Under the pieces are notes generated by a model. It did not search any database. It was not told the DNA's origin and saw only the letters and a program-made list of their open reading frames with translations. Below are positions 33,830 through 42,773 of a stretch of DNA of 42,861 nucleotides, in pieces. The stretch is from the NCBI GenBank assembly GCA_004297825.1, contig SCSX01000084.1, positions 1-42,861 of the forward strand. Direction: 5' to 3'. The stretch's first letter is position 1. Each line of letters opens with the position of its first letter. The position numbers and the translations under genes were made by a program. This stretch comes from Spirochaetota bacterium (lineage in GTDB: Bacteria; Spirochaetota; UBA4802; UBA5368).

Positions 33830-33903
33830 AGTAATTGCGGGGTGCGGAGGATGTCCCCCAATCCGGCGGATCGTCCCCGATCCTGACCGGAATGGGAACT
33901 CGG

Positions 33904-34593
33904 ATGGACGGTTTCATGGCAAACATAACTGTGTATGCGCTGCCCCGGTGTCTGCTGCTGCTGACGGGATTGTCGCTATTTAGCGTTGCCGTTACCAGGA
34001 GGAACCGGCGATCCGAAACGACAATGTTCGGACTTTTGTGCCTGTGGTCGTCTTTAACGGCATTTGATATTGTCCCCAATCTTTTCTTCAAGGGCGATAC
34101 GGGTCGGATCGAGCGAATAGAGCGCGCCATTCACACCCTGTACGTGTTCGCACCCTGGATGGGGATTCTGTTCATTCATTCGGTGGCACGTTACAGGAAC
34201 AGGGGGGTAACTGTCGCGGGTTTCGCCCTGAGCGCGGTCATATCGCTTTCTACATTTAGCGATTATTACATCTACGGCCTCCGGGAATCCCCATGGGGAT
34301 ACATTCCCAGGGCCGGCATCATGCTGCAGGTGTTCTTCGCATTCGCCCTGCTGACTATGATGTATGGAATCTTCATGTTATCGAGGAGAAACAAGAGCGC
34401 GGTCAATGAAAACGAGCGCGTCAAGCTCCGGCTCCTGGTGTTTTCCATAGTACTGTTTTTCCAGATGACGCTGGGCAGCCTCCCGGTGATGCACGGGATC
34501 GATTTCTATCCCGTGGGGAACTTCGTCTTCATCCCGCTGATTCTAATGGCCTGGGGCATATACCGATATGAATGGATTCCCGGTAAATCGTAA
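33904..34593 (+). CDS. Stand-alone 7TM sensor domain (histidine-kinase N-terminal type)
   Basis: A 229-residue membrane protein with seven hydrophobic helices, resembling the 7TM region found at the N-terminus of some histidine kinases and diguanylate cyclases. The last helix ends with AWGIYRYEWIPGKS and then a stop, exactly where an effector (PAS, kinase or GGDEF domain) normally begins. So it is either a sensor module that works with a separate partner or the remnant of a truncated receptor. No effector-like sequence is visible in the AT-rich 216 nt that follow. The start at 33904 is chosen by hydrophobic pattern; ATG 33916 is possible. A promoter and an immediate terminator lie upstream. 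Confidence 0.7.
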   Translation: MDGFMANITVYALPRCLLLLTGLSLFSVAVTRRNRRSETTMFGLLCLWSSLTAFDIVPNLFFKGDTGRIERIERAIHTLYVFAPWMGILFIHSVARYRNRGVTVAGFALSAVISLSTFSDYYIYGLRESPWGYIPRAGIMLQVFFAFALLTMMYGIFMLSRRNKSAVNENERVKLRLLVFSIVLFFQMTLGSLPVMHGIDFYPVGNFVFIPLILMAWGIYRYEWIPGKS

Positions 34594-34809: not shown

Positions 34810-35715
34810 ATGAACTACAGATTAGCAATGCGAGCGTTCTCACTCCTCACGGTCCTCTCCATGATGAACGTCGTTCAGTGCAGCAAATCCAGGGAGGCCA
34901 GGGCGGTCACGACCCTCGTCACCGGGCAGGTATCGGTCACCTACGACGGGCGTAAGCCGATCGCGCTCAACGTCGGCGACGAGGTAAGGCGCGGGGCCGT
35001 CGTCACGACCGAGGCAATGTCGTCGGCGACCATACAATTGAATGAAGTGGGAATAGTCCGTATCGCCGAGAATTCGCGGCTCGAACTGAAATCGATCATC
35101 GCCGAAAACGGGGCGACGGAGTTGAAGCTCGAAAGTGGGGCGATCTTCTCCCGCGTTTTAAAGAGGCCCGGAACGGAATACAGGGTGCAGACACCCACGC
35201 TGGTCGCATCCGTCCGCGGCACCGAATTCATGGTGACCTCGGACTGGTCGCGGGGCGGCGTGTTTGTGCGCGAGGGGACCGTTGCCGTATCCACGCCCGT
35301 GGACAAGACCGAGAAGCCCGTCACGGTGAAAAAGCGCGCCGCGGTCGGTAGTGACGGCCGCGCCGTGGTCGTCCCCCAGGTTCGCGTGGAGGAGCTCATC
35401 CTCGAGAAGCACGCGCTTCAGCCCTATATCGAGAATATCGAAACCAAAAAACCCGCCGAGATCGAGAAGGTGTTCAAGAAGATCGAGGTTGAGGAGCGGG
35501 CGATCGATCAGAAGATCGAGGACATTAAGCTCACGGCGCTGCAAAAGCTCAAAAAGCAGGGGAAGCCCCTGGTGAGGCTCTTTCTCAGGGACGGAAGCCA
35601 GATCATAGGTTCCGTCGAAGAAACGACCGCGGCCGGGCTCAAGCTCGACACGGGTGAGAGCGTCATAGAGATACCCAAGGGCGACATACGGCGCCGGGTG
35701 CCCGAGCAGCAATAG
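34810..35715 (+). CDS. FecR-domain lipoprotein with C-terminal beta module
   Basis: A 301-residue probable lipoprotein. The signal sequence ends at a relaxed lipobox, MMNVVQC-SKS (Cys24), common in spirochaetes. A FecR domain spans about 35-165 (GDEVRRGAVVTTEAMSSATIQL, RIAENSRLELKSI, PTLVASVRGTEFMV). A charged helical section (about 195-245) follows. A small beta module (about 256-297: RLFLRDGSQIIGSVEE, then IEIPKGDIRR) is shared with the two barrel proteins downstream. No sigma factor gene is adjacent, so this is not a classical FecI/FecR signalling pair. Such free FecR lipoproteins are thought to act at the cell envelope. GGGGGA lies seven nt before the ATG. First gene of a five-gene operon. 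Confidence 0.85.
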   Translation: MNYRLAMRAFSLLTVLSMMNVVQCSKSREARAVTTLVTGQVSVTYDGRKPIALNVGDEVRRGAVVTTEAMSSATIQLNEVGIVRIAENSRLELKSIIAENGATELKLESGAIFSRVLKRPGTEYRVQTPTLVASVRGTEFMVTSDWSRGGVFVREGTVAVSTPVDKTEKPVTVKKRAAVGSDGRAVVVPQVRVEELILEKHALQPYIENIETKKPAEIEKVFKKIEVEERAIDQKIEDIKLTALQKLKKQGKPLVRLFLRDGSQIIGSVEETTAAGLKLDTGESVIEIPKGDIRRRVPEQQ

Positions 35716-35754
35716 GAACCGGAAGGCGATTCGTGAACGAGGGAGATCGCTGAT

Positions 35755-36630
35755 ATGAGAGTCCAGGCGACACGAGCCATCCAGGCCGTCTCCATCCTTT
35801 TAGCGCTGTGTGCGGTCTTCGGGATGACGCACAACGCGGCGGCCGAGATCGTCTACCTGAAAAACGGCAGCGTCGTCAAGGGGACGATTGTCCGGGAAAC
35901 CAGGACCGGGATCACGCTGAAAGACGGCGACCGCGAGCGGGAGATTCCCAACGCGGACATCACGCGGGTGATGTACGGGAACATGGACATGGAAGAGGTC
36001 TATATCCTGGGCATGGACGGTTCAATAACCAGGGAATACATGGTGGACCAGGACAAGGACGCGATCACCGTGCGTGACAAGCCCGACTCCCCGGCCGAGC
36101 GGACCATTTTGAGAAGGGACATCAGGGAGATTTCACGGGACGCCCACTATCCCGTGGACCTGGAGTTTTATATGAAACCCGCCGCCTTCGTGCCGCTTGA
36201 TTCCGGCAGGGCCGATCTTAAGACGACGGGACAGTATACGCTCGGAATGGGATTCAATTCCATGATGGCGCCCAACCTCAGATTAATGTTCGAAACGGGC
36301 TTTCTCCGTTCGGAGAGCGGAACGAATTCCGGCCAGTCCCTGAGGATCGTTCCCGTCACCTTGAGTCTGGCCTACAACTATTTCCTCGCCCGGGAGTTCA
36401 CGCTGATCCCGAAGCTGGGAGGGGGTCTGGGCATCTCGCAGTTTGAAACCGGCGAGGGGGACGTCATGAAGTCGAACCTGCTTGCGGCGACCGCGGGATG
36501 CGGACTGATGTATCGCCCGAACCGCGGCGCGTACTCCTTCGGGCTGTGGGCCGAATACGCGTTCTTCTTCGATGGCGCGAGCGTCTTCCAGGCCGGGGTA
36601 ATAGGCATGTCGTGCGGATACAGGTTGTAG
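35755..36630 (+). CDS. Outer-membrane beta-barrel-like protein A with two N-terminal beta modules
   Basis: A 291-residue exported protein. The signal peptide ends near HNAAA-EIVYL (residue 30). Two copies of the small beta module follow: about 31-76 (VYLKNGSVVKGTIVRE, REIPNADITRVMYG) and about 79-130 (EVYILGMDGSITREYMV, ILRRDIREIS). From about 132 on, alternating strands starting P-V-D-L-E-F and ending CGYRL suggest an eight-strand-type barrel with a terminal aromatic/Leu strand. GGGAGA lies upstream of the ATG. It is a paralogue of the barrel protein at 40598-41479 (shared PVDLEF, similar strand order). Presumed outer-membrane location is an inference from composition; porin, scaffold or assembly roles are all possible. 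Confidence 0.8.
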   Translation: MRVQATRAIQAVSILLALCAVFGMTHNAAAEIVYLKNGSVVKGTIVRETRTGITLKDGDREREIPNADITRVMYGNMDMEEVYILGMDGSITREYMVDQDKDAITVRDKPDSPAERTILRRDIREISRDAHYPVDLEFYMKPAAFVPLDSGRADLKTTGQYTLGMGFNSMMAPNLRLMFETGFLRSESGTNSGQSLRIVPVTLSLAYNYFLAREFTLIPKLGGGLGISQFETGEGDVMKSNLLAATAGCGLMYRPNRGAYSFGLWAEYAFFFDGASVFQAGVIGMSCGYRL

Positions 36631-36634
36631 GGAA

Positions 36635-37378
36635 ATGGGAAACACGATAAGGGCATTCCTGGCCGGGATATTTGCCGCATCAGCGGCGCTCGGCGGAGCC
36701 GGCTGCGGTGAGTCTTATATCGCCGATATGAAAAGCTTCGAAAAAAACGAGTCCCCGGTGATCGATACGTTTACGTCGAATATCGACCCCCTTGCCGTCG
36801 AGATCTATCCCGGCATGGAGATGCTGCTCACGGTGAAGGCACATGACATCGAGGGCGATCCCATCACCTATGCCTTCAAATCCGCGCAGGGGACGATGCG
36901 CAATCTGGTGCATACCGCCGACGGGTGCACCGTGGATTATTTCATAAAATCCACGTGCGGCAGCAGCGATTCAATCCCCATCACGGTCATCGCCACGGAC
37001 GATAAAGGCGCGTCGTCCTCGCGCACCATCGACATGGGAGACGGCACGACCGGTCCTGTCTTTTCGTCATCGACCTGGACCGGCAGCACCACGCTCGCGT
37101 CCGGCGGCACCATGAGTGTCGACTTTTCAGTCGATCGCTCGGGATTCTACCAGGTGAGGTTTCAGAATTCGCTGGTCAGCACAATCGATTTTGATATGTC
37201 TCATGCTTCCTTTTTTTATACGGCCGGTGACCCGAAGACGGTCATATTCCATGCGCTAACCGGAACAGATGAGAACACAAACCTGCCGGCGGCGGGCACC
37301 TACAATGTCTATGTCCTGTTGCTCGATAAGTTCAATCGGCTGTCCTGCGTTTCGAATACGGTCACCGTCATTGATTAG
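36635..37378 (+). CDS. Lipoprotein, short paralogue of the GLUG-repeat lipoprotein N-terminus
   Basis: A 247-residue probable lipoprotein with lipobox LGGAGC (Cys24). Two beta-sandwich-like segments follow, cadherin/Ig-like in pattern (ESPVIDTFTSNIDPL, LLTVKAHDIEGDPITYAF, PITVIATDDKGASSS; then SGFYQVRF, DFDMSHASFFYTAGDP, YNVYVLLLDKFN). The protein aligns along nearly its entire length with residues about 20-245 of the next protein, so it looks like the duplicated N-terminal unit of that larger lipoprotein. The start is 4 nt after the barrel A stop. No function is known. A surface or periplasmic partner of barrel A is a reasonable guess from the operon. Confidence 0.8.
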   Translation: MGNTIRAFLAGIFAASAALGGAGCGESYIADMKSFEKNESPVIDTFTSNIDPLAVEIYPGMEMLLTVKAHDIEGDPITYAFKSAQGTMRNLVHTADGCTVDYFIKSTCGSSDSIPITVIATDDKGASSSRTIDMGDGTTGPVFSSSTWTGSTTLASGGTMSVDFSVDRSGFYQVRFQNSLVSTIDFDMSHASFFYTAGDPKTVIFHALTGTDENTNLPAAGTYNVYVLLLDKFNRLSCVSNTVTVID

Positions 37379-37401
37379 GTCCGGGGATTAGAGGATACAC
37401 T

Positions 37402-40400
37402 ATGAGAACGCGATTAATAAATATTTTTGGTTTATTTCTCCTCCTTCCCTTCCTTCTCGCATCCGGCTGCAGCGAGGTGGTGGGCCCGCTCAAGGACTTC
37501 ACCCCGAACAAGGCGCCATCCATCATCAGCTTCACCGACGACCTCGTTCCCGCGACGCCCATTGTCCCGGGCCTGACCTCCCTCCTCGCGGTGGAGGCGA
37601 GCGACCCCGAGGGCGAGGCGCTCCACTTTGAGTACAGCTCCGCCGACGGGAGCTTCTCCGACCAGACGGACACGAAGTCCGGGAGCACGGTTACCTTCCA
37701 CGCGGGAAGCCATATCATCCCCCTGCAGCCGGTGAGCGTGAAGGTGACGGTCAGTGACGACCGGAAAGGAAAGGCGTCGCAGGAAATTGTCCTGGGGACG
37801 ACGGCAAGTGGTCCCGCCCTTACCTCGATAGGGGATATCCCCGTCTATACCGCCTCGAGCGGGCAGGTCAACTACACCTTCACCGCCAACACCTCCGGGC
37901 TCTACCAAGTGCAGGCCGTAGCCGGCACCGGGGCCGTTGCGCCGGCCTACGACATGGGCCTGGCGAATTACTATTACCACGCCGGCAGCGAGGTCACGGT
38001 CAGCGTAGACGGGCCCGACTGGCTCGGCATCGAGGGCGACGTAAGGGTTTCTGTGAGCGCGCAGAGCAGGGTATGGGTGCTGCTCAAGGACTCCATGGAT
38101 GCCGTGGGAACCGCGTCGTTCATCCTGACGCTCGACGACGGGAAGCCCTCCTCGACGGTGAGCGTGCCGGACGGGACGGAGGCGCTGAGCGCCTTTCAGG
38201 TGGCCATAACGGCAAGCGACGCGTTATCCGGCGTGTCGCGGATCAGCTACACGGTGAATGGGGGCGACCCGGACTTTACCGGCACCGGCACGGTGGTGAC
38301 GGGAGCCTCGGCCGTCGCGACCATAGGGGCAGGAGGCTACGGCACTTACACCTTGAAATATCGCGCTATCGACGCGGTGGGGAACACGGAGGATGTGAAG
38401 AGTGTAACCTACACGGTGGTGAGCGGAGACCATACGCCGCCGGTTTCCACCGTGAATCCTGCCAACGGTCAAATATCCAAGAGCTCGTTCACGGCGACCA
38501 TAAGCGCGACCGACAATCTCGTGGGCGTATCGAGGATCAGCTACGTAGTGAATAGTGCCGCGATCCCGGATTTTTCCGGCAACAACGGGACGATAGTGAC
38601 GGGAAGCACGGCAAATGTGCCCATTGGCAGCTCCGGCGACGGCACCTACGAGCTCAAATACCGCGCCATCGACAAAGAGGATAACCTGGAGGATGTGAAG
38701 ACCGCAACCTACATCGTCGACGGCGTCAAACCCTCCACGACCGTGAATCCCGCGAACCTGCACAGGTCGACGACGCAATTCACGGTGGACATAAGCGCAT
38801 CCGATTCGGTTTCCGGCGTATCGCGGATACGCTACACTCTGGACGGAAGCGATCCTCTGACCTCCGGAACAGCGACGGTCGTGTATGCCGATACGACCCA
38901 GGCGGTCATAGGCCCGGCGGAAGGCACCTATGAGCTCAAGTACCAGGCCATCGACAACGCGGAAAACATGGAAGATGTACGGACGGCTAATTACGCAATC
39001 GACCAGACGGCGCCGGGCGAGGTGAACCTTTCAGTCGTGAGCGCCGGCGGCGAAAGCATTACGGTGCAGTGGACGCCGCCCGGAGACTCCGACCTGAAAG
39101 ACTATCTGCTCACCATCGATTCCGAATCCGGCGGCCCAACGGTAGAGGTCGTTACAGTGATGACGTACATCTTCAGCGGCCTCACCAATGGCACGGAGTA
39201 CACCATCAAGGTGCAGACAAGGGACATCGTGGACAATACCTCGACGGGCGTGAGCATCAAAGTCACCCCGCCCGCTGAGTCCAAGACGGTGTACACAGTC
39301 TCGGGCCCTGCCGACCTCATCCAGGTAAGCGAGACTCCAGCCCGGTGGAACGGCTACATCGTGCTTTCGGGCGACATCGATGTGACCGGACAGACATGGA
39401 CGCCAATTGGTAATTCAACGGTGTGGTTCACCGGTATCTTTGACGGGAACGGCCATGCGGTGACCGGGCTTGAAATGAGCGATAGCACCCATTCGGGGCT
39501 TATAGGCTATGCGAACGGCGCGACCATCAGGAATACCGATGTAACGGGCTGCTCCATTCAGAATGCAGATTACTATTCAGGAGCGCTGGTTGGGATAGCC
39601 GACTCAACCACCATTTCCGATTGCCATGTAACGGGCATTCTCGATGCCACCGCCACCGCCACGGGAGTGGGAGGGTTCGCCGGATCGTTAATGAGCTCAA
39701 CGGTCACGGGGTGCACGGCCGACGTGGACGTGACCGACGGAGATTCATCCGTAGGTGGTTTTGCCGGATCCGTGGTTTCATCCACAATAAGCGACTGTAT
39801 AGTTACAGGAAGCGTGGTTTCGTACGACGGCAACTGTATCGCAGGCGTGGCCGGGTATGTTTCAGGAAGTTCAAGCTTTACAGGCTGCCTGTTTTCGGGA
39901 ACTGTCGTGGGGGCTAATGTAACTGGGGGAATTCTCGGCCATGGGGAGGGTCTGGTAAGCAGATGCAGATCGACGGGGACGGTAACAAGCAGTGGTGATC
40001 ATGCCGGGGGTATTGTGGGCGAGACGACTAATATCACAATAACCGAGAGTTGGGCGACCGGGGACGTGCGTGGCACCTATAATTTTGGCGGGCTCGTTGG
40101 CTGGATCAGTGTGAGTTCCACATGCGAAATCAGCAATTGCTATGCACGTGGAAATGTTACACACACCGGGAGCGGAGACAACTTTGGCGGACTGTTAGGA
40201 TACGGCATCGGTTCGGCGCTGACGATCATAAACTGCTATGCCACGGGAGCTGTTACACAATCGGGGACCACTTATGGCGGCTTTGTGGGGTATATCGACG
40301 GCCCGACGATTACGAATTGCTTTTATTATCAGCCGCCGAAAAACCCCGCTGTAGGGGATGCGGGGGGTTATTACACGACGCAGGCACTTATGCTGCAGCA

Positions 40401-40497
40401 GTCCACCTATACCGGATGGGACTTCACGAATACCTGGAACATAGACGGTACCAACGACGGCTTCCCGTATCTGCGGGAGAACCCGCCGTTGCCGTAA
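37402..40497 (+). CDS. Large surface lipoprotein: OmpL47-like repeats, Fn3 and GLUG repeats
   Basis: A 1031-residue modular lipoprotein. Order: signal with lipobox LASGC (Cys23); an N-terminal unit (about 30-245) homologous to the preceding lipoprotein; three OmpL47-like/chitobiase-linker repeats at about 247-340, 345-440 and 441-534 (each with S-G-V-S-R-I-x-Y-T and Y-x-L-K-Y-x-A-I-D motifs); one fibronectin type III domain (about 536-622); then a Ser/Thr/Gly-rich beta-helix of GLUG repeats (about 690-975), recognisable by repeated G-G-F-A-G/G-G-L-V-G and T-I-S-D-C/I-x-N-C-Y-A-x-G steps. The C-terminus ends DGFPYLRENPPLP, typical of GLUG proteins. An adhesin or surface-binding role is likely by analogy. 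AGAGG precedes the ATG. Confidence 0.88.
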   Translation: MRTRLINIFGLFLLLPFLLASGCSEVVGPLKDFTPNKAPSIISFTDDLVPATPIVPGLTSLLAVEASDPEGEALHFEYSSADGSFSDQTDTKSGSTVTFHAGSHIIPLQPVSVKVTVSDDRKGKASQEIVLGTTASGPALTSIGDIPVYTASSGQVNYTFTANTSGLYQVQAVAGTGAVAPAYDMGLANYYYHAGSEVTVSVDGPDWLGIEGDVRVSVSAQSRVWVLLKDSMDAVGTASFILTLDDGKPSSTVSVPDGTEALSAFQVAITASDALSGVSRISYTVNGGDPDFTGTGTVVTGASAVATIGAGGYGTYTLKYRAIDAVGNTEDVKSVTYTVVSGDHTPPVSTVNPANGQISKSSFTATISATDNLVGVSRISYVVNSAAIPDFSGNNGTIVTGSTANVPIGSSGDGTYELKYRAIDKEDNLEDVKTATYIVDGVKPSTTVNPANLHRSTTQFTVDISASDSVSGVSRIRYTLDGSDPLTSGTATVVYADTTQAVIGPAEGTYELKYQAIDNAENMEDVRTANYAIDQTAPGEVNLSVVSAGGESITVQWTPPGDSDLKDYLLTIDSESGGPTVEVVTVMTYIFSGLTNGTEYTIKVQTRDIVDNTSTGVSIKVTPPAESKTVYTVSGPADLIQVSETPARWNGYIVLSGDIDVTGQTWTPIGNSTVWFTGIFDGNGHAVTGLEMSDSTHSGLIGYANGATIRNTDVTGCSIQNADYYSGALVGIADSTTISDCHVTGILDATATATGVGGFAGSLMSSTVTGCTADVDVTDGDSSVGGFAGSVVSSTISDCIVTGSVVSYDGNCIAGVAGYVSGSSSFTGCLFSGTVVGANVTGGILGHGEGLVSRCRSTGTVTSSGDHAGGIVGETTNITITESWATGDVRGTYNFGGLVGWISVSSTCEISNCYARGNVTHTGSGDNFGGLLGYGIGSALTIINCYATGAVTQSGTTYGGFVGYIDGPTITNCFYYQPPKNPAVGDAGGYYTTQALMLQQSTYTGWDFTNTWNIDGTNDGFPYLRENPPLP

Positions 40498-40597
40498 CGG
40501 GAAGATGACCCGACGGGAATGCGGGGATATAAATCAAGGAACGAGGCGCCGTCCGGATGCGGGCGATATCAGACCTCAGAGCCTTAAAGGAGAACCG

Positions 40598-41479
40598 ATG
40601 AGCACCTTTAAATACAATGCGATCAACCCATTCATCGCAATCCTTGCGGGAGCGTTTCTGCTGGGCGTGCTTTCCTTCACGAGTCGCGCCCTCGCCGAAA
40701 TCATCTCCCTCCATGACGGGCAGGTGATCAACGGCGAGATCATTCAGCGCGGCGACGGCTACATCACCGTCAAGACGAAATACCAGACGCGGCAGATCAA
40801 CCTGGGCGAGGTGAAGAGCATAGAGAAGGAGCGCAAGGGATTCGAGCGCGTGTACATCCTCACACGCGAGAACGCGGTCATATCCGGCTACCTCGTGGAG
40901 GAGGACGCGCTTCGCGTGGTGTACCGGGAGGGCCAGGACGCGCCGGACAAGACCCTGTCGAAGCTCAACATCGTGAAAATGTCGGGCGAGGAGATCAGTC
41001 CCGTGGACCTGGAGTTCCGCTTCATGCCGGGGGCGTTCATCCCGCTGAACACGGGGGGCTCCCATCTGGGTCCCGCGACCTCCTACATGGGGAGCGCCGG
41101 CTTTAACGCCTTATTCGTGCCGCGAATGCGCCTGCTCCTGGACGCGGGATACGCTAAGAGCGTGAACGGAGAGCACTCCGAGCGCTATCTCCAGGTGATA
41201 CCGGTCATCGCGAGCGCGGTCTACCCCTTCCGCGCGACCTCGCGGCTCGAGATCATTCCCCGCCTGGGACTGGGTTTTACGAGGCTGGAATATTATGACG
41301 GCGAGAAGGACGAGCTGAGCACCATGGCCATGACCACGGTCGCGGGACTGTCGCTCTCGTTCTCGTTCGTGCCCCGGCGCTTCTACCTGGGCTTGTTCGC
41401 CGATTACATGATGCTCTACGATTTTTCGGCCGCGCTCCACGCCGTGGTCGCGGGCGTATTCGCGGGGTTCAGGCTTTAA
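40598..41479 (+). CDS. Outer-membrane beta-barrel-like protein B with two N-terminal beta modules
   Basis: A 293-residue exported protein, paralogue of barrel protein A. The signal peptide ends at SRALA-EIISL (residue 33). Two small beta modules follow: about 34-78 (IISLHDGQVINGEIIQ, QINLGEVKSIEK) and about 84-130 (RVYILTRENAVISGYLV, LSKLNIVKMSG). The region from S-P-V-D-L-E-F (about 134) to the final FAGFRL strand has barrel-like alternation, with RLEIIPRLGLGFTRLEYYDG in the middle. I use the ATG at 40598 (AAAGGAGA six nt upstream); the frame is open further upstream without a ribosome site. Last gene of the envelope operon; a GC-rich hairpin lies 28 nt past its stop. Confidence 0.8.
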   Translation: MSTFKYNAINPFIAILAGAFLLGVLSFTSRALAEIISLHDGQVINGEIIQRGDGYITVKTKYQTRQINLGEVKSIEKERKGFERVYILTRENAVISGYLVEEDALRVVYREGQDAPDKTLSKLNIVKMSGEEISPVDLEFRFMPGAFIPLNTGGSHLGPATSYMGSAGFNALFVPRMRLLLDAGYAKSVNGEHSERYLQVIPVIASAVYPFRATSRLEIIPRLGLGFTRLEYYDGEKDELSTMAMTTVAGLSLSFSFVPRRFYLGLFADYMMLYDFSAALHAVVAGVFAGFRL

Positions 41480-41615: not shown

Positions 41616-42773
41616 TTAAACATCTATGTTGACAACATTCCTCCATGAAGTAATCGTAACCCCTTCCCTTTCATAACTTTTATTGCCACCATAAACGATG
41701 TAAGAAGGCCCCGCGTTTTTATTCAAGGTTTTGAAGAAATTCAGGCCCTTGAGAAAATCACTCGCGACCGTCATGCCGGATTTTATTTCAATCTGCCCGG
41801 TTTCGGATCCCCGATCCATTATAATGTCGACCTCGTTCCCCGTGTTGTCTCTGAAGTAATACAGATTGTCGGTTTTAACCGCGTTATACCTTTTCTTGAT
41901 AAGCTCGGATACGACAAGGGATTCAAAAATCGCGCCTCGGAGAGGATGATTCATCAAATGATCCGGGTCATTGATGCCAAGGAGATAACAGACAAGACCG
42001 GAATCAAGGAAATAAAGTTTTGGTGATTTGATAAGTCTTTTGTTGAAGTTTTTATAGTATGGCCGGAGAAGTTTTAAGATGCCGCTGGCTTCAAGTATGG
42101 ATACCCAGTTTTTTACCGTAGCGTGGTTTATGCCGCAGTCATTCCCAATAGATGACAAATTCAGAATCTGGCCGCATCTTCCCGCGCAGAGTTTCAAGAA
42201 TCTGTCGAACACGGAAAGGTCTTTAATGTTAATAATATTTCTCAGATCTCCTTCAATATAGGTATTTACATAAAAGGATAACGCCTCGGTGGGGTTCAGC
42301 TTCTGGTCATGAATGCGGGGATAGAAGCCGGTGTAAAGGACCGTATCAATGTCCGGAGTTTTTTTGGGTGCATAAATCTCATCAATAGTGAAGGGAAGAA
42401 GGTTTATGAGCGCCGTTCGTCCGGCGAGAGACTGGGTTACTGAACTCAGCAGGTCAAATTGGTGGCTCCCGGTTAGTATGAATCTGCCGTTTCCCTTTTT
42501 GCCGTCGACCGCGGTCTGGATATATGAAAGCAGGCCGGGGACACGTTGGACCTCGTCGATCACTACCCCGTTGGGAAATTGTTTCAGAAAACCCCTTGGG
42601 TCATTTCTGGCATACTCCCGGTTGTCAATATCCTCCAGAGATATATACTCCCTGTGTTTAAAAAGGGCCCTGCAAAGGGTCGTTTTACCTGATTGCCGTG
42701 GACCGGTGATGGTAATTACCGGATACTGATCCGCAAGCTGGAGAACCTTCCCGGATATGGCGCGTTTTATCAT
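41616..42773 (-). CDS. DUF4143-type AAA+ ATPase with nuclease-like C-terminus
   Basis: A 385-residue protein of the AAA_14/DUF4143 group. The N-terminal ATPase has Walker A GPRQSGKTT (24-32), Walker B GVVIDEVQRVP (about 69-79) and a sensor motif FILTGSHQFDLL. The C-terminal DUF4143 part ends with the restriction-endonuclease-like pattern G-N-E-V-D-I-I-M followed by EIKSG, the E-V-D...E-I-K core of PD-(D/E)xK folds. These proteins are widespread, patchily distributed and functionally unresolved; some lie in mobile or defence regions. The gene is visibly AT-richer than its neighbours and carries a 33-bp palindrome upstream, both consistent with horizontal acquisition and self-regulation. The ATG at 42773 fits the family's usual N-terminus. 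Confidence 0.9.
   Translation of the reverse strand: MIKRAISGKVLQLADQYPVITITGPRQSGKTTLCRALFKHREYISLEDIDNREYARNDPRGFLKQFPNGVVIDEVQRVPGLLSYIQTAVDGKKGNGRFILTGSHQFDLLSSVTQSLAGRTALINLLPFTIDEIYAPKKTPDIDTVLYTGFYPRIHDQKLNPTEALSFYVNTYIEGDLRNIINIKDLSVFDRFLKLCAGRCGQILNLSSIGNDCGINHATVKNWVSILEASGILKLLRPYYKNFNKRLIKSPKLYFLDSGLVCYLLGINDPDHLMNHPLRGAIFESLVVSELIKKRYNAVKTDNLYYFRDNTGNEVDIIMDRGSETGQIEIKSGMTVASDFLKGLNFFKTLNKNAGPSYIVYGGNKSYEREGVTITSWRNVVNIDV

Follow-up and report, generated by a model that had tools for sequence, protein, structure and literature searches.

A five-gene envelope locus of a spirochaete, possibly derived from FecR-type cell-surface signalling

In this work, a stretch of 42,861 nucleotides from a Spirochaetota bacterium (assembly GCA_004297825.1, contig SCSX01000084.1; hereafter the window) was analysed for an operon of five open reading frames (ORFs) on the + strand at 34810-41479. 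They encode, in this order, a FecR-domain protein, an outer-membrane barrel (barrel A), a short lipoprotein (lipoprotein 1), a long modular lipoprotein (lipoprotein 2) and a second barrel (barrel B). We propose that the locus may be an envelope cassette derived from FecR-type cell-surface signalling, and we give this reading a probability of about 0.45. It is carried by a module common to FecR and the barrels, and by relatives in which an anti-sigma FecR is encoded between an extracytoplasmic function (ECF) sigma factor and the barrel; both had been overlooked in the initial annotation of the locus, made from the sequence alone. The window genome is denoted G000, its sampled relatives by other G-numbers, loci by L-numbers and contigs by C-numbers.

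Results

The window FecR carries a Pfam FecR domain at residues 64-158 (1.8e-15) and a putative lipid-modified Cys24 in the lipobox VVQ-C, in which Q at -1 is atypical; the orthologues have the canonical ASC, VSC or MAC. Its last ~40 residues are homologous to the N-terminal repeats of the barrels (BLASTP to barrel A, E 8e-5). By profile-profile comparison (hhalign), this C-terminal module reached 97.8% (E 1e-12) to barrel repeat 1 and 77% to repeat 2, and the two repeats reached 93% to each other. The profiles of the FecR module and of the barrel repeats also drift weakly to Sm/Hfq-like chains of the PDB (E 0.01-0.5). The label Sm/SH3-like is given to the barrel repeats from secondary structure and weak sequence matches, because the Foldseek/VIA lists barely covered residues 1-130 of barrel A. 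Judged by sequence, two features make FecR part of the barrel-lipoprotein unit: the homology of its C-terminal module to the barrel repeats and, in relatives, its anti-sigma role beside an ECF sigma factor.

The FecR proteins of G013, G026, G037 and G023 are longer and have, in addition, a cytoplasmic domain at the N-terminus and a transmembrane (TM) helix; an ECF sigma gene precedes them and a barrel gene follows. The same sigma-FecR-barrel row was found in G033, and in G032 and G034 the sigma and barrel genes flank an anti-sigma N-domain. The sigma factors matched Sigma70_r2 at E 5e-8 to 1e-10 (G026, G037), sigma70-ECF at 7e-17 (G013) and a sigma profile (G023), and the same sigma subfamily occurs at the loci of G013, G026, G037, G023 and G033. 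Furthermore, proteins with the barrel N-domain form a large family in the taxonomic order, and in 36 of 91 examined a FecR or an anti-sigma fragment is encoded next upstream on the same strand. For FecR genes next to a barrel gene (34 pairs), distances in the FecR tree correlated with those in the barrel N-domain tree at r 0.76; exchanging partners among paralogues of one genome lowered this to 0.53 +/- 0.07, and 1 of 2000 such exchanges gave a value as high; the correlation speaks of joint descent and not of contact, because adjacent genes are inherited together. Sigma/anti-sigma FecR pairs are also encoded elsewhere in the window genome, on C36 and C60; one pair is transcribed divergently from a further FecR lipoprotein gene. 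Such a pair, divergent from a separate FecR lipoprotein gene, was seen in four genomes (L144, which is C36 of G000, L081, L143 and L146), an arrangement that suggests a role for the lipoprotein FecR in the circuit.

The barrels A and B are paralogues (84 of 276 residues identical, 30%; BLASTP E 3e-47), and lipoprotein 1 resembles residues 21-246 of lipoprotein 2 (66 of 231, 29%; E 3e-23). Both kinships had been claimed in the initial annotation, and neither is due to chance. Searches of the whole assembly returned A and B as the only full-length copies of the barrel, and only lipoproteins 1 and 2 with lipoprotein 1 as query. The AlphaFold2 model of barrel A (mean predicted local distance difference test score 85.8) consists of two five-strand N-terminal repeats (residues 31-127) followed by eight long membrane strands (residues 137-290), so that the supposed barrel region is predicted to be a barrel, and this part matches the structures of OmpA, NspA and OmpW at Z 17-19. 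Barrel A exceeded the cut-off of the NCBIfam family Lepto_7_Nterm (NF047433; 45.8 against 43 bits), barrel B stayed under it (25.5 bits), and the TP0733 family gave a weak barrel match (E 1.7e-4) that did not reach its cut-off. No Pfam match to TonB, plug, STN, POTRA, autotransporter or SLAM domains was found in the barrels, nor one to the OmpA C-terminal peptidoglycan-binding domain; the barrel ends the protein. A scan of genome contigs with barrel B alone gave no match, and the scan with alignment A1 matched four loci of uncultured Spirochaetes/Spirochaetota metagenome-assembled genomes.

Lipoprotein 2 is indeed a large modular protein by Pfam (GLUG 4.8e-15, fn3 2.1e-11), NCBIfam and AlphaFold2. 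It was modelled as a chain of two immunoglobulin (Ig)-like domains in common with lipoprotein 1, three OmpL47-type Ig domains, an fn3 domain and a GLUG beta-helix; Foldseek recovered strings of Ig/Fn3 domains only. Genes downstream of barrel N-domain genes encode lipoproteins in 33 of 48 cases, compared with 32 of 397 background genes counted by one and the same rule (p 1e-20), and their content is mutually unrelated (PMP/beta-helix, FG-GAP, NHL, kelch, Big_2 and Listeria-Bacteroides repeats). These lipoproteins have a tether after the lipid Cys that is acidic at +2/+3 and hydrophobic at +5 (C-x-[DE]-x-[hydrophobic]). For these tether features, passengers and family lipoproteins taken together compared with FecR and background taken together at 31/39 versus 9/48 (p 1e-8) and at 31/39 versus 5/48 (p 3e-11); like the downstream-gene test, these comparisons count related sequences as independent and represent strong trends. 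The pattern fits lipoprotein 1 (CGESYI) and lipoprotein 2 (CSEVVG) and is lacking in the FecR lipoproteins from the same loci.

Some further observations were made on the lipoproteins. The downstream lipoproteins of L077-L142 (e.g., L083, L102, L140), with unrelated passengers, have in common the tether C-[GDS]-[DE]-[SL]-[YFIL]-[YTD] right after the lipid Cys, possibly a spirochaete sorting signal. The lipoprotein of G037 (L033:8384-11653) is one frame split by TAA between its N-terminal region and its passenger, and matches to the N-terminal region (LIPN) in G014 (C78, C112), G026 and G039 likewise have stops within them or extend into one. Four family lipoprotein loci of G014 and G026 adjoin copies of one ORF of 140-190 residues (MEFTKEQLEQIGSYIE...; L030:3148-3603, L031:7960-8529, L032:2340-2759, L037:1282-1767) with no Pfam match; this ORF may represent a mobile element or a switch.

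The arrangement recurs in relatives: G001, of the same genus, and G022, from a different family of the same taxonomic order, both have the full set of five genes in the window order. The identities to G001 are 68% for FecR, 67% for barrel A, 51% for lipoprotein 1, 61% for lipoprotein 2 and 70% for barrel B. A shorter FecR-barrel-lipoprotein version is present in G008, G037 and G039. Outside the order, in families f22, f38 and f41, the full-length barrel adjoins a lipoprotein that shares the N-terminal region, and FecR is not beside them (L134-L138); in two of these cases barrel and lipoprotein are convergent. Profile searches of 296 genomes found the full-length barrel in 13, and 13 of 13 carry the lipoprotein family, usually adjacent; the lipoprotein family occurs in 14 genomes, 13 of them with the barrel (hypergeometric 9e-22). 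The barrel and lipoprotein trees are congruent: G140 and G148 are sisters, G144 and G107 are sisters, and the proteins of G013 and G037 group in both. With full or near-full support, barrel A, barrel B and lipoprotein 1 each form a clade of G000, G001 and G022, and lipoprotein 2 forms one of the same genomes plus two extra G022 copies. The duplication is therefore older than the split of G000/G001 from G022, or it was shared by transfer. Because the species branch alike in all four groups, the trees do not distinguish barrel A with lipoprotein 1 and barrel B with lipoprotein 2 from the swapped pairing, and the pairing used here is based on gene order.

For Leptospira, chromosome II or plasmid records were covered. 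The L. interrogans chromosome II record contains an ECF sigma gene, then a 363-residue FecR protein with a TM helix, and a further FecR protein. This FecR aligned end to end with the window-family FecR (98.4%), and its C-terminus resembles the module at 61-65% as a single sequence (shuffled sequences at most 3.5%). A tblastn search of the plasmid records with the barrel gave no match, and at two loci of the Leptospira plasmid collection no such barrel gene was found beside the FecR genes. The Leptospira anti-sigma family NF047528 had no match over its cut-off among 393 genomes of the phylum. Lepto_7_Nterm proteins of NCBIfam are named after Leptospira loci, which suggests that a candidate outer-membrane partner may exist in Leptospira. 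In the full row at L182:1506-4693 (L. interrogans chromosome II), the ECF sigma and FecR anti-sigma genes are followed by one for a HAMP-like membrane protein and then by that of a second FecR protein.

The features of the operon are listed in Table 1. The ORF coordinates bear out the annotated row of five genes on one strand with short gaps, which measure 39, 4, 23 and about 100 bp in succession. For barrel B, the ATG at 40598 is preferred over the earlier annotated start at 40505, itself possible, because AAAGGAG precedes 40598 and the signal peptide of the orthologue begins there. Promoter and terminator scans gave no excess over shuffled sequence. 5' of the operon, a hydrophobic ORF of 252 residues (33835-34593) resembles the 7TM sensor part of histidine kinases without a kinase domain; its sole Pfam match is a weak one to the receptor-like Git3 (E 0.024). 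Directly after the operon lies a convergent AAA_14/DUF4143 ATPase gene (41616-42773) of a common solitary family, which is probably unrelated.

Table 1. Features of the five-gene operon, in window coordinates
Feature	Position	Strand	Basis
FecR-domain protein, probable lipoprotein	34810..35715	+	Pfam FecR 1.8e-15; NCBIfam Lsa33 2.4e-27, under family cut-off
FecR C-terminal Sm/SH3-like module	35578..35700	+	hhalign 97.8% to barrel repeat 1; BLASTP 8e-5
Barrel A: signal peptide, two Sm/SH3-like periplasmic repeats, eight-stranded OmpA-like barrel	35755..36630	+	NCBIfam, AlphaFold2, PDB matches
Barrel A tandem Sm/SH3-like repeats, aa 31-127	35845..36135	+	AlphaFold2 secondary structure; repeat 1 vs 2 hhalign 93%
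Barrel A eight-stranded membrane barrel, aa 137-290	36163..36624	+	AlphaFold2; OmpA/NspA/OmpW Z 17-19
Lipoprotein 1: lipobox AGC, tether CGESYI, two Ig-like domains, no passenger	36635..37378	+	
Lipoprotein 2: lipobox SGC, tether CSEVVG, LIPN region and modular passenger	37402..40497	+	
Lipoprotein 2 LIPN region, lipoprotein 1 paralogue	37471..38139	+	BLASTP E 3e-23; 71% identity to G001 orthologue
Lipoprotein 2, three OmpL47-type Ig-like repeats	38140..39006	+	NCBIfam NF047446 1.8e-28, 3 stretches; AlphaFold2
Lipoprotein 2 fn3 domain	39010..39225	+	Pfam 2.1e-11
Lipoprotein 2 GLUG-repeat beta-helix	39355..40329	+	Pfam GLUG, 6 stretches; AlphaFold2 strand pattern
Barrel B, barrel A paralogue	40598..41479	+	BLASTP E 3e-47; ribosome-binding site AAAGGAG; 70% identity to G001 barrel B

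Discussion

From the gene order, homologies, predicted folds and co-occurrence, we infer the physical contacts, the surface exposure and the signalling in the following scheme. The OmpA-class eight-stranded barrel would anchor in the outer membrane and put its two Sm/SH3-like domains into the periplasm. At the outer membrane, the modular lipoprotein would pair with the barrel; it would most likely face the surface and would bear exchangeable binding or adhesive domains. FecR would dock on the periplasmic domain of the barrel via its homologous C-terminal module, as FecR and PupR do on the STN domain of FecA and PupB. In the relatives, where FecR is predicted to span the inner membrane beside an ECF sigma factor, transcription could respond to ligand binding by the lipoprotein-barrel unit. 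The lineage of the window would have turned its FecR into a lipoprotein and duplicated the genes of barrel and lipoprotein, A with the short lipoprotein 1 and B with the long lipoprotein 2. Direct coupling to a sigma factor would then have been lost, or would run via anti-sigma FecR proteins encoded elsewhere in the genome, because the FecR of the window, a probable lipoprotein, has no anti-sigma part.

Several points weigh against this derivation. The window FecR has a signal peptide only and, in the alignment, is without the cytoplasmic anti-sigma domain and TM helix of its relatives, and no ECF sigma gene is among the genes of the window operon. Moreover, for 55 of the 91 genes with the barrel N-domain, the gene immediately upstream is not a FecR gene, and the module common to FecR and the barrel could perhaps be a generic fold used twice. 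The correlation of FecR and barrel distances fits cognate pairs, but joint inheritance of neighbours alone could produce it, and the lipoprotein trends have the dependence among sequences noted above. Finally, G014, at 96% completeness, lacks the barrel yet has six lipoproteins of the family, and G022 has extra family lipoproteins far from any barrel. These two genomes also divide the earlier claim of two matched lipoprotein-barrel systems: a conserved unit of barrel and lipoprotein is upheld by the co-occurrence, the congruent trees and the adjacency without FecR, whereas the independence of two systems is not, since family lipoproteins occur without a barrel as well.

The main rival to a signalling-derived cassette is a plain outer-membrane adhesin operon, in which surface lipoproteins would be anchored or chaperoned by the barrels, FecR would play a structural part as a periplasmic lipoprotein, and the Sm-like modules would be scaffold contacts with no signalling. 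We regard it as quite possible. The sigma-less window operon, the FecR-less barrel-lipoprotein units of f22, f38 and f41 and the adhesin-like passengers are all in accord with it, and Lsa33, a FecR lipoprotein of Leptospira, was reported as a surface laminin binder (PMC3444417). Nevertheless, it does not account for relatives in which FecR is an anti-sigma protein with sigma and FecR genes directly 5' of the barrel, nor for a common FecR-barrel module that mirrors the PupR-PupB arrangement.

How the lipoproteins would reach the surface bears on another rival. OmpA-type eight-stranded barrels have no pore that passes large domains, whether folded or unfolded. The barrel is thus more probably an anchor or a transducer than a conduit, because it is too narrow for the passenger. 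Display through the barrel, as the initial annotation had it, was accordingly rejected on the eight predicted strands (OmpA/NspA fold), which cannot pass Ig and beta-helix domains. The same lack of a usable pore makes a lipoprotein export pair improbable, in which the barrel and its periplasmic domain would recognise the acidic tether and flip the cognate lipoprotein to the surface, like SLAM or a Bacteroidetes exporter. Passengers unrelated in their domains do have C-x-[DE]-x-[hydrophobic] in common, absent from the FecR lipoproteins (p 1e-8, 3e-11), and the 13/13 co-occurrence would also suit such a pair. However, the six G014 lipoproteins have no barrel to export them, and the tethers do not conform to the minimal Bacteroidetes signal K-(D/E)2 or Q-A-(D/E)2 (PMC5080379). 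That there is no functional unit at all, only unrelated envelope genes clustered and duplicated by chance in this lineage, was already disfavoured and is very improbable: lipoprotein copies away from barrels and some loci with broken gene order would agree with it, but the order kept between families, the co-occurrence, the congruent trees and the FecR-barrel partner test would not.

A wider proposal is put forward tentatively, and we consider it rather doubtful as a whole. Spirochaetes may have a TonB-independent class of cell-surface signalling, in which exchangeable lipoproteins at the surface sense ligands, an OmpA-class barrel with Sm-like domains in the periplasm transduces and an anti-sigma FecR reads the signal via the matching Sm-like module. 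The outer-membrane partner that the ECF/FecR pairs of Leptospira still lack might be a protein of this kind. The Leptospira papers of 2025-2026 leave open which outer-membrane protein talks to FecR-like anti-sigma factors (PMC12155086, PMC12655853). A non-TonB barrel with such an N-terminal domain, encoded right after the genes of a sigma factor and of an anti-sigma protein that has the matching module, would be a concrete candidate. It would mean that cell-surface signalling extends from iron receptors to modular surface lipoproteins, and that dozens of unnamed spirochaete envelope loci fall under one plan.

Comparison with known systems

Autotransporters, two-partner secretion and SLAM need a large barrel (at least 12 strands) to pass or flip a passenger, whereas the barrel here has eight strands. 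In the Bacteroidetes lipoprotein export signal (LES), acidic residues stand just after the lipid Cys as they do here; its rule (near +2 to +6), with the minimal forms K-(D/E)2 or Q-A-(D/E)2 (PMC5080379), is not followed by CGESYI or CSEVVG, and the tethers here usually have a single acidic residue and then a hydrophobic one. The barrel fold is that of OmpA, NspA and OmpW, but with two N-terminal Sm-like domains and no OmpA C-terminal peptidoglycan domain. Both NCBIfam families resembling the barrels, TP0733 and Lepto_7_Nterm, of which barrel A passes the cut-off of the latter, are named without a function.

The FecR-domain lipoproteins Lsa33 and LipL45 of Leptospira have the same architecture as the window FecR, which lies far under their curated cut-offs (95.9 bits to Lsa33, NF047849, against 420 bits; 350 bits for LipL45). 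LIC_12757/LIC_12756 of Leptospira is an ECF sigma/FecR-like pair in which FecR was shown to be an anti-sigma factor; its outer-membrane partner is unknown, and none of the Leptospira TonB receptors has the needed N-terminal extension (PMC12155086, PMC12655853, PMC13118517). LIC_12756 is laid out like the long FecR proteins described here, with a cytoplasmic domain at ~1-73, a TM helix at ~74-93 and a periplasmic FecR part (PMC12155086, PMC13118517). The pair differs in having no known outer-membrane partner, and the sequence comparison made here was with the chromosome II relative alone.

Compared with FecI-FecR-FecA and PupI-PupR-PupB, the TonB-dependent receptor with its plug is replaced by an eight-stranded OmpA-like barrel, STN is replaced by the Sm/SH3-like module (two five-strand repeats in the barrel), a modular lipoprotein partner is added, and the window copy is without a sigma factor or TM anti-sigma protein. 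In the PupR-PupB structure, the C-terminal subdomain of the regulator and the N-terminal domain of the receptor are both STN folds, joined in one complex (PMC7186176). The likeness to these systems is that the window FecR has the periplasmic FecR domain, that its C-terminal subdomain is homologous to the N-terminal periplasmic domain of the putative outer-membrane partner and, in relatives only, that the ECF sigma and anti-sigma FecR genes adjoin the outer-membrane gene.

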